A stretch of DNA of 64,000 bases, taken from NCBI GenBank assembly GCA_018241995.1, contig JAFECT010000006.1:186001-250000 (forward strand). Reading direction: 5' to 3'. Position 1 is the stretch's first letter; every line of letters starts with the position of its first letter. The position numbers and the translations under genes were made by a program. The notes under the pieces were generated by a model that was not told where the DNA came from, did no database searches, and saw only the letters and a list, made by a program, of their open reading frames with translations. This document shows, piece after piece, positions 2,959 through 13,410 of the stretch. The DNA comes from Pseudomonadota bacterium (GTDB lineage Bacteria; Pseudomonadota; Alphaproteobacteria; Caulobacterales; Caulobacteraceae).

Positions 2959-3015
2959 GAGCCCTCCGGGGCAAAAGGTCCCCTGAGCTAGGCCTGCCGA
3001 CGGCTCAGTTCAAGC

Positions 3016-3831
3016 TCAGTTGAGGCGCAGACGCACCCGTTCGCGCGCGGCGCGGGCCACGGTCGAGGTCCCGGCGTCGATGCGCTGGGCGCGGCCCAGG
3101 GCCTCCAGGGCTCCGGTCAGGGCGCCCTGCTTCTCGCGCGCGGAGGCGACGTCGAGCCAGGGGCGATGGTCCTCGGGGTCGAGCAGGGCGCGGCGCAGGG
3201 CCGAGCGCTCCGCCGCCTCGAAGTCGCCCGACGCCAGGGCCCGGGCGAACAGCTGGTTCTGCAGCCGGATCAGCACCTGGCGGTCAGAGACCGGCGCCAT
3301 CAGAACCTCCAGCCGATCGGCCACGTCCGGCGTCAGGCCCGCGCGCAGCGCACGCCGCGTCAGCTCCGAGGGCAGGACCAGCCGGCCCTGGCTGAAGGGA
3401 TCCAGCGCCACCGGACCTTCCTCGGTGTCGACGCGGAGCAGGAAGTGGTTGGGAAAATCCACCCCGTCCGCCTTCAGCCCGCATTTGCGCGCGGCGTGCA
3501 GGTAGAAGACGCCGAGCGTCGCGGAGATGCCGCGCCGCCGCTCGGCCACGTCCACCACATCGGTGTTGGCCGGGTCGTCGTAGGTCAAAAGATCGCCGGA
3601 CAGGCGCATGTCGCCCGACAGCGTCTCGGCCAGGGCCTCGTCGGGCGATTCATTGTGCAGGCGCTCGGCCAGGCGCGCGGCGGCCGCCTCGGCCAGGGCG
3701 CGCACCGGTTGGGGGTCGCGGAAGGGGATGTCGTGAACGGCGCAGGCAATCGCCGCCTCAAGCAGCGGGAACTCGGCGTCCAGCGCCTCCCCCGCCTTCG
3801 TCAACACCCGTTCCGCCTCTTCGCGGGTCAT
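3016..3831 (-). CDS. SirB1-family protein (transglutaminase-like plus TPR)
   Basis: This 271-aa protein matches the SirB1 family. Residues about 35-190 form a transglutaminase-like fold, with the family segment RRRGISATLGVFYLHAAR and the His-containing PNHFLLRV followed by LDPFSQGR. Residues about 190-270 form TPR-like helices (FARALASGDFEAAERSALRR). The catalytic Cys of true transglutaminases is not evident, which is usual here. Its function is not established; family members often neighbour housekeeping genes. It lies 37 nt after yraN and 57 nt before gshB on the same strand, so it is probably part of that operon. It has no signal peptide and is predicted cytoplasmic. Confidence 0.88.
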   Translation of the reverse strand: MTREEAERVLTKAGEALDAEFPLLEAAIACAVHDIPFRDPQPVRALAEAAAARLAERLHNESPDEALAETLSGDMRLSGDLLTYDDPANTDVVDVAERRRGISATLGVFYLHAARKCGLKADGVDFPNHFLLRVDTEEGPVALDPFSQGRLVLPSELTRRALRAGLTPDVADRLEVLMAPVSDRQVLIRLQNQLFARALASGDFEAAERSALRRALLDPEDHRPWLDVASAREKQGALTGALEALGRAQRIDAGTSTVARAARERVRLRLN

Positions 3832-10701: not shown

Positions 10702-11925
10702 ATGTTCGACTATTTCCGGAAGCTGCTCGATTCCGCGAGCCTGTCGCCGCACGGCATCTGCCTGCTGTGGCGACCGGAGCTGCTGTGGACCCACGTCACC
10801 TCGGACGCCGTCATCGCGGCGTCCTATTTCTCGATCTCGGCGGCGCTGTCCTACTTCCTGATGCGCCGGAGGGACATCAGCTTCGGGCCGATGGTCTGGG
10901 CCTTCGCCACCTTCATCCTGGCCTGCGGCGCCACCCACGTGATGTCGATCTGGACGCTCTGGCATCCGGACTATGGCGTCGAGGCGATGGTCAAGCTCCT
11001 GACTGCGGTGGCCTCGATCGTCACCGCCGTGGCGCTCTGGCCGCTTCTGCCCAAGGCCCTGGCCTGGCCCTCGCCGGTGCAGCTCCAGGCCGCCAACAGC
11101 GCCCTGGAGGAGCGGATCCGGGAACGCGACACGGCGATGGAGGCCCTGCGCCTGGAGACCGCCGCGCGGCTCGAGGCGGAACAGAAACTCCGACATGCGC
11201 AGAAGATGGAGGCGGTGGGCCAGCTGACCGGCGGAGTCGCCCACGACTTCAACAATCTGATGACCGTGGTCCTGGCCAATCTGGAGCGGGCCGAGCGCCA
11301 GCTAAGCAAGGATGGGGCGGGCAAGGACGAGGCGGCCGTGGTCAAGGCATTGCAGAACGCCCAGGTCGGCGCCCGCCGCGCCGCGGTCCTGACCCGGCAG
11401 CTGCTTTCCTTCTCGCGCCGCCAGCCGCTGCAGCCGGTGCTCGGTGACGTCAATGAGATCGTCAGCCAGGCGGCCGACCTGGCCAAGGGCCTGATGCCCG
11501 ATCAGGTCCGCACCGAACTGAAGCTGGCGTCCGGCCTGCCCTCGGTGCAGGTCGATATCAACGAGGCGGTCAACGCCCTCGTCAATCTCTCGGCCAATGC
11601 GCGCGACGCCATGCCGGAGGGCGGTTCCCTGGTTATCCAGACCGGCCTGGCGGAACTGGAGCAGGGGGCGGTCTCCGACCTGAAGGCCGGTTCCTATGTG
11701 ACCGCCGCGGTGACCGACACGGGCTGCGGCTTGGCGCCGGAGGTGGCCGAGAAGGCCTTCGAGCCGTTCTTCACCACCAAGCCGTTGGGCGAGGGAACGG
11801 GCCTCGGCCTCAGCCAGGTCTACGGTTTCATCCGCCAGTCCGGCGGTGACGTGATCATCGACAGCTTGGTCGGCAGGGGCACGACGGTTACGCTCTATCT
11901 GCCGGCTGCGGGGGAAGCAGCATGA
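10702..11925 (+). CDS. ETR1-type (ethylene-binding) sensor histidine kinase
   Basis: This 407-aa protein has three N-terminal membrane helices (about 33-54, 63-86 and 95-117) that closely resemble the ethylene-binding domain of plant ETR1 and cyanobacterial SynEtr1. D35, Y42, I45, I72, C75 and H79 match ETR1 D25, Y32, I35, I62, C65 and H69 at a constant offset of ten. The CGATH copper motif is intact; ETR1 P36 is Ser46 here. A coiled-coil stretch (about 128-165) leads to a CckA-like kinase core: H181 in [10 protein letters not shown]-box [10 protein letters not shown], and glycine boxes DTGCGLAP and [10 protein letters not shown]. There is no GAF or receiver domain. The downstream receiver gene overlaps by 4 nt. 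Ethylene binding is inference from the domain. Confidence 0.88.
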
Positions 11926-12296
11926 ACACCGAAGCGGGAAAGGGCGCGCCGGCCAGGACCGTGCTGGTCGTCGAAGACGAGGCGCTCGTTCGCGAGGTCC
12001 TTTGCGATGACCTGCGCGAGGCGGGCTATCTGGTCGACGAGGCCGAGCGGGGCGACGATGCGATCGCGGCCCTGCAGCGGGGCTTCGACGTTCTGCTGAC
12101 CGATATCCGCCTGCCCGGGCGGCTCACCGGCTGGGACGTGGCCGAGGCGGCCCGGCGCGCGACGCCCGATATCCAGGTGATCTACATGACCGGCTATACG
12201 CCGGACGCGCCGCGGCAGGTGGCCGGCAGCCAGCTGATCTCCAAGCCCTGCACCGGTTCGGAGATCGTGGCCTTGATGCAGCGATCGGCGGCCTGA
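11922..12296 (+). CDS. Single-domain response regulator
   Basis: This 124-aa CheY-like receiver has no output domain. The acidic pocket is in VVEDE (about 17-20), the phosphoacceptor is D61 in LLTDIRLPG, followed by Thr in IYMTGYT and Lys in ISKPC. ATGA overlap with the upstream ETR1-type kinase makes it the obvious partner, receiving phosphate from H181. Without an output domain it must act by protein contact, as a phosphate shuttle, or as a sink. The receiver resembles those fused to CckA-type kinases, suggesting a split hybrid kinase. Confidence 0.92.
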   Translation: MNTEAGKGAPARTVLVVEDEALVREVLCDDLREAGYLVDEAERGDDAIAALQRGFDVLLTDIRLPGRLTGWDVAEAARRATPDIQVIYMTGYTPDAPRQVAGSQLISKPCTGSEIVALMQRSAA

Positions 12297-12300
12297 CTGC

Positions 12301-13410
12301 CTAGTGCGCGTGCGGCCCTTCCGGGGGCGTCGCGCCCGGCGGGGTCATCTGCTTGCGCCGCAACCGCGTCAGCCGTCGCAAGCGCCGCCAGAACCGGGTC
12401 TTCTCAGGCTCCGGATAGGGCTTCAGGTTGCGCACGAACTCCTCGGCCGAGGCGCGCCACGAGAACTTCTCGGCGTAGGCGCGGACCGCCTTGCGGTCGA
12501 GTTTCAGGCACTCCAGGCAGGCCTGTTTCAGGTCCTGGTCGATCACGCCGGCGCCGGAGCCCGGGATGATGTCGATGGGGCCAGGGGCGGGGTAGGCGGC
12601 GACCGGGGTGCCGGTGGCCATGGCCTCCAGGATCACCAGGCCGAAAGTGTCGGTCAGGGACGGGAACACGAACACGTCCGCGTCGGCGTAGCAGCGGGCC
12701 AGCTCGTCGCCGAACTTGGCGCCCACGAACTTGGCCTCGGGATATTTCTTCTCCAGCTCCGCCTTTGACGGCCCGTCGCCCACCACCACCTTGGTCCCGG
12801 GCAGGTCCAGTTCGAGGAAGGCCTCGATGTTCTTCTCCACCGCCACCCGGCCGACCGAGACGAAGATCGGGCGCTCCAGGCCCTCGAAGATCGGCTCCAG
12901 GCCGGGACGGAACAGCTCGGTGTCCACTCCGCGCGACCAAGGCGAGATGTTGCGGAAGCCGTGCTTCTCCAGGTCCGAGCGCATGGTGGGGGTCGCCACC
13001 ATCACCCGGCCCGACGGCTTGTGGAACCAGCGCATGAAGGCGTAGCCCACCGACAGCGGCACCGGGAAGCGCGCGGCCACGTACTCGGGGTACTTGGTGT
13101 GATAGCTGGTGGTGAAGGGCAGGCCCCACTCCTGGCACACCCGGCGCGCGGCCATGCCGATCGGGCCCTCGGTGGCGATGTGGATGCCGTCCGGCTCGAA
13201 GTCCTTGAACTTCTCGCGGATCTCCTCGTAGGCGCCCAGCGCCAGCCGGATCTCCGGATAGGTCGGCATCGGCACGGTCTTGAACTGGTCCGGGCTGATG
13301 ACCAGCACCTCGTGGCCCATGGCGCGGCACTCGGCCACCGTGCGGGTCAGGGTGCGGACCACGCCATTGACCTGAGGCTCCCAGGCGTCCGTGGCCAACA
13401 GAATACGCAT
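12301..13410 (-). CDS. GT4-type glycosyltransferase
   Basis: This 369-aa GT-B glycosyltransferase has the N-terminal LATDAWEPQVNGVVRTL, typical of alpha-glycosyltransferases acting on diacylglycerol or other membrane acceptors. The acceptor domain has SYHTKYPEYVAARFP. The donor domain contains FVSVGRVAVEKNIEAFL and the E-x7-E motif region DVFVFPSLTDTFGLVILEAMATGTPV. The C-terminus is very basic (FWRRLRRLTRLRRKQ), suggesting membrane association. The likely product is a glycolipid; donor and acceptor cannot be told from sequence. Its stop is 4 nt from the convergent receiver gene. Confidence 0.85.
   Translation of the reverse strand: MRILLATDAWEPQVNGVVRTLTRTVAECRAMGHEVLVISPDQFKTVPMPTYPEIRLALGAYEEIREKFKDFEPDGIHIATEGPIGMAARRVCQEWGLPFTTSYHTKYPEYVAARFPVPLSVGYAFMRWFHKPSGRVMVATPTMRSDLEKHGFRNISPWSRGVDTELFRPGLEPIFEGLERPIFVSVGRVAVEKNIEAFLELDLPGTKVVVGDGPSKAELEKKYPEAKFVGAKFGDELARCYADADVFVFPSLTDTFGLVILEAMATGTPVAAYPAPGPIDIIPGSGAGVIDQDLKQACLECLKLDRKAVRAYAEKFSWRASAEEFVRNLKPYPEPEKTRFWRRLRRLTRLRRKQMTPPGATPPEGPHAH

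Follow-up and report, generated by a model that had tools for sequence, protein, structure and literature searches.

In a 64,000-nucleotide stretch of a Caulobacteraceae genome (the window, to which coordinates refer unless another record is named), we identified a 407-residue sensor histidine kinase with an ETR1-type ethylene-binding domain, encoded together with a single-domain receiver, in which a serine, Ser46, takes the place of Pro36 of Arabidopsis ETR1. Sequence evidence establishes the domain and the residues of its site, the pairing of the two genes and the group to which the kinase belongs, and we consider it probable that the pair is a working copper/ethylene two-component sensor whose affinity has probably been altered.

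The kinase gene (10702..11925, + strand; ORF call) comprises the ethylene-binding domain, a coiled coil, a HisKA domain with H181 and a HATPase_c domain. Its stop codon overlaps the start of the 124-residue receiver gene (11922..12296, + strand) as ATGA at 11922–11925, bearing out the coupling of the two genes proposed in a preliminary description of this DNA. Pfam matched ETR1_N to kinase residues 26–121 (10777..11064, + strand) with 128.9 bits (E 9e-38, cut-off 27) over profile positions 1–96 of 97, an identity far beyond chance. HATPase_c was matched at residues 287–402 (63 bits) and HisKA at residues 173–241, the latter with 24.9 bits, slightly under its cut-off of 26.9; these three were the sole Pfam matches in 10702–11925, with neither PAS nor GAF among them, in line with the earlier statement that a GAF domain is lacking. 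The phosphoacceptor box AHDFNN containing H181 (residues 180–185; 11239..11256, + strand) is invariant across orthologue set A2. The product of 11922–12296 matched Response_reg only and carries E18-D19-E20, the predicted phospho-acceptor D61, a TGY motif and K108. An AlphaFold2 model of the kinase, computed with 23 orthologues, contains three helices of membrane length (26–55, 62–87 and 91–120), a long helix (125–203) bearing H181 and then the ATPase fold; at a mean pLDDT of 81 and a pTM of only 0.49, the domain arrangement in this model is unreliable. A scan of the locus for promoters and terminators returned nothing exceeding chance.

Aligned with ETR1, the kinase runs at an offset of 10 across helices 1 and 2 and, after a three-residue gap, at an offset of 7 in helix 3. 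All six residues that had been matched to ETR1 at an offset of ten (D35, Y42, I45, I72, C75 and H79) are present, and the CGATH copper site is intact as claimed, the copper ligands Cys65 and His69 being kept as C75 and H79 together with Asp25 as D35. The proposed equivalence of K98 with ETR1 K91 stands in part: the lysine is there at offset 7, but the match hinges on the local alignment. Alanine scanning of ethylene binding, reportedly by Wang in 2006, is said to have covered seven residues. The kinase has six of the seven ETR1 residues required for ethylene binding, with Ser46 (codon TCG, 10837..10839, + strand) replacing Pro36, a substitution that the preliminary description had correctly recorded; because it strikes one of the seven required residues, the designation 'ethylene receptor' is less secure than was implied there. 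In ETR1, I35, P36 and I62 are named among the residues essential to ethylene binding (PMC6586836), and the tomato Never-ripe mutation is Pro36Leu (PMC6727826). According to a review, replacement of the conserved Asp by Asn leaves a working receptor with an approximately 100-fold lower affinity (PMC13012798), indicating that changes at the site can tune binding and not only abolish it.

We then considered how unusual the serine is. Proline occupies ETR1 position 36 at all 80 loci from named genomes and in 190 of 200 domain copies, a set made up of these 80 loci, the Caulobacteraceae set, samples at order, class and phylum level and four plasmid records; Pro36 was absent from the search patterns. 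Seven of the ten copies with another residue have lost other parts of the binding site too, and D, Y, I, I, C, H and K are all retained in only three, namely the kinase described here and two loci (L196, L200) from two genomes of one distant genus. These two, which the tree of the ethylene-binding domain (ETBD) places apart from our kinase, represent the one further sampled cellular lineage with Ser36 in an otherwise intact site. The L196 protein (L196:903-3779, G850) has 958 amino acids, a SHEIRTP kinase motif and fused receiver-like segments, and its gene adjoins one resembling an ammonium transporter. A co-variation of Ser31 (ETR1 numbering) with Ser36 (3/3 versus 40/182, p 0.012) was dropped, two of the three copies being sisters. 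Five kinase-length proteins (L140, L141, L178, L180, L182) contain degenerate ETR1_N domains in which Pro36 and further residues of the site are missing along with Cys65, His69 or both, and are perhaps natural ethylene-blind or repurposed sensors.

Across 25 orthologues with matching domain order, 35 columns of the domain do not vary, although the invariance of the Cys/His motif columns in L035–L114 is partly built in because the search patterns held that motif, and our kinase departs at a single one, Pro46 to Ser. Its ratio of domain to kinase conservation is 1.32, against 1.18–1.42 in the other members. With 34 of 35 invariant columns kept and a ratio inside the range of the others, the ethylene-binding domain is neither decaying nor drifting.

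The requirement for Pro36 in ETR1, the ethylene insensitivity of Pro36Leu tomato (PMC6586836, PMC6727826) and the presence of proline in 80/80 named relatives all count against a working sensor. The first two would also favour a receptor resembling Never-ripe, in which P36S abolishes ethylene binding while fold and copper are kept, and signalling is constitutive or responsive to copper or redox state; that position 36 is the sole invariant column lost points the same way. Serine is, however, a milder substitution than leucine, outside this position the domain is conserved to the same degree as in other members, and a second lineage has Ser36 too, which makes this explanation unlikely in our view. 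Alternatively, Ser46 might stem from an error of sequencing or assembly that turned CCG into TCG in an otherwise ordinary member, as a single base separates TCG from a Pro codon and one genome of the genus was sampled. Given an assembly of 19 contigs that is 97.9% complete and has no sign of error at the locus, and given that residue 47 also departs from the common residue, such an error is very improbable.

Comparison with named receptors places the working-sensor reading in context. AzoEtr1 of Azospirillum brasilense Sp7 has 525 residues, of which the first 130 bind ethylene, and combines an ethylene-binding domain with a PAS and a kinase domain; its stop codon is overlapped by a gene for a 135-residue receiver that carries no further output motif (PMC11819568). 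Using AzoEtr1 as recorded for the A. brasilense Sp7 plasmid, we found a gapless alignment with our kinase at offset zero over residues 1–145, with 54% identity, which, together with the 128.9-bit ETR1_N match, upholds the assignment of the domain as ETR1-type. Both AzoEtr1/AzoRRetr1 and the present pair combine an ethylene-binding domain, a histidine kinase and an overlapping downstream gene for a single-domain receiver; AzoEtr1 differs in having a PAS domain, AHEMSQ as its H-box and Pro46, whereas our kinase lacks a PAS domain and has AHDFNN and Ser46. SynEtr1 (Synechocystis slr1212) similarly carries its ethylene-binding domain on a histidine kinase signalling to a response regulator, but differs in having a domain for light sensing and a regulator, Slr1213, that is modelled as a transcription factor. 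Arabidopsis ETR1 shares the three-helix copper site with D25, Y32, I35, I62, C65, H69 and K91, and is distinguished by a GAF domain, a different kinase, a fused receiver and Pro36 where our kinase has Ser. Since the AzoEtr1 gene is overlapped by a receiver gene (PMC11819568), a lone coupled receiver beside an ethylene-receptor kinase is already described. The suggestion that this would be a new setting for ethylene sensing does not hold: besides the overlapping receiver of AzoEtr1, the PAS-less layout is common among Alphaproteobacteria, and ETR1_N is found in 58 of the 390 Caulobacteraceae genomes (9 of 22 genera).

PAS-less kinases with an adjacent receiver occur in Methylobacterium, Sphingomonadaceae and Pseudolabrys and on Novosphingobium plasmids (for example L035–L039, L041–L044, L031 and L033). 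They have the same domain order as our kinase, with 50–58% identity over the whole kinase and about 34–54% in the receivers, but all 25 aligned orthologues have Pro at the ETR1 P36 position. ETR1_N, HisKA and HATPase_c were found in 26/26 aligned members, and PAS or GAF in none. Among 91 domain copies on AHDFNN kinases, counted by motif rules in an uneven sample, 61 are fused to a receiver (mostly in Bradyrhizobium) and 29 have it as the next gene; the latter comprise the Methylobacterium, Sphingomonadaceae, Pseudolabrys and Novosphingobium plasmid copies and the kinase described here. In a tree built on the kinase core and so independent of the sensor, our kinase falls in this separate-receiver set (29 rows, support 89/80) with its sister not fixed, and the ETBD tree, with its small number of columns, does not place that sister either. 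The plasmid pairs of Novosphingobium sp. ES2-1 p2 (L031) and THN1 pTHN (L033) lie on plasmids typed as conjugative, and the ES2-1 p2 pair is near genes annotated as Cas9 and Cas1. One record titled Frankia sp. RB7 (L101, JAUEPE010000009.1) groups its receptor among those of Bradyrhizobium and is probably mislabelled or contaminated. The literature searched yielded no report of a ligand test for the PAS-less group, and Cu(I) sites also accept other pi ligands; both would be compatible with a domain whose natural signal is a small ligand other than ethylene (a different alkene, CO or copper itself). As six of the seven key positions of the binding site agree with AzoEtr1, we regard this as improbable.

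The kinase core had been called CckA-like, which is accurate as a broad resemblance: it is of the AHDFNN type, with H181 in this motif, and among solved structures CckA gives the best match. In the sequence and fold comparisons with solved proteins, the nearest entries were CckA and further kinases, and the matches listed included no ethylene-binding domain. A closer relationship to CckA is not indicated, as the best NCBIfam model was PRK13557 (252.6 bits), ahead of CckA models at 243.1 and 197.3 bits, all far under cut-off; for the CckA equivalog, 243 and 197 bits compare with a cut-off of 1000. Eleven other kinases of the source genome are 41–52% identical across the kinase core. The genome returned a single weak hit to the family of ChpT-type phosphotransferases, and a CckA–ChpT-like relay is possible but unsupported.

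The gene pair was likely gained horizontally, judging from comparison of neighbourhoods and homologues. It is followed by a glycosyltransferase gene (12301..13410, – strand) of a conserved flanking block, outside the system, which has homologues in 31/31 relatives searched, beside PutA in several; in the 20 neighbourhoods read, the kinase–receiver pair adjoins this glycosyltransferase in the source genome only. The closest relative by glycosyltransferase (G001) returned no ETR1_N match, and the closest matches of the sensor domain are in Hyphomicrobiales, where a Bradyrhizobium bin reaches 73% identity and Methylobacterium and Methylorubrum reach 72%. Together with the kinase motifs of other Caulobacteraceae copies, described below, these observations favour horizontal gain. 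No foreign composition is visible, the GC content (0.677) and GC3 (0.897) being similar to those of the neighbours. Most ETR1_N copies fetched from Caulobacteraceae carry HWE-type or other kinase motifs, and AHDFNN was seen only in our kinase and in L127, where the receiver is fused.

Ethylene-binding domains without a kinase were also encountered. The isolated marine Maribacter phages Molly_1 (L238:2435-3304; MT732451.1 36990-37859) and Colly_1 (L239:1435-2304) encode a 289-residue 'hypothetical protein' with ETR1_N (60.9 bits), whose gene directly precedes one for an N-acetylmuramoyl-L-alanine amidase. The protein retains the copper-site Cys and His and the helix 1 Tyr and Ile; by eye, Asp25 is replaced by Asn, Pro36 by Ser and Lys91 by Asp. 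A viral contig that also bears a RusA-type resolvase gene (L234:2704-3540, IMGVR_UViG_3300003267_000167) has a kinase-less domain (103 bits) with all site residues by eye, and another (L235 near 2963-3305, IMGVR_UViG_3300031730_000003) has one in which Asp25 and Lys91 are, by eye, both lost. The joint loss of these residues in L235 and the Maribacter phages would fit the salt bridge proposed between them. Additionally, frames of 137–158 amino acids in cellular genomes (L151, L157, L161; also G443:C12:309305-309613, L150) contain the domain without a kinase.

Taken as a working sensor, the pair would operate as follows. By analogy with its family, C75 and H79 of the three-helix domain, which also has D35 and K98, would coordinate Cu(I), and ethylene would be expected to bind at the copper site. 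Binding may change the coiled coil (helix 125–203) and thereby alter H181 autophosphorylation, from where D61 of the overlapping receiver would take up the phosphate; as the receiver has no effector domain, its output is presumably by protein contact. The natural Pro36-to-Ser change probably leaves the site in place but with a lower or retuned affinity for ethylene. This reading is supported by the 128.9-bit ETR1_N match, the likeness to AzoEtr1, membership of the separate-receiver group, the intact domain and the second lineage with Ser36. More tentatively, a natural ethylene receptor that works with Ser36, with tuned affinity or ligand preference, may have arisen more than once in bacteria.

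The kinase adds a member to a widespread and hardly tested class of bacterial ethylene-sensor genes, in which a layout near that of Azospirillum is common across Alphaproteobacteria, conjugative plasmids included. Its Pro36-to-Ser change in an otherwise fully conserved site amounts to a natural experiment on a residue whose mutation blocks tomato ripening: either Pro36 is not strictly needed, or bacteria retain ethylene-blind copies of the receptor.
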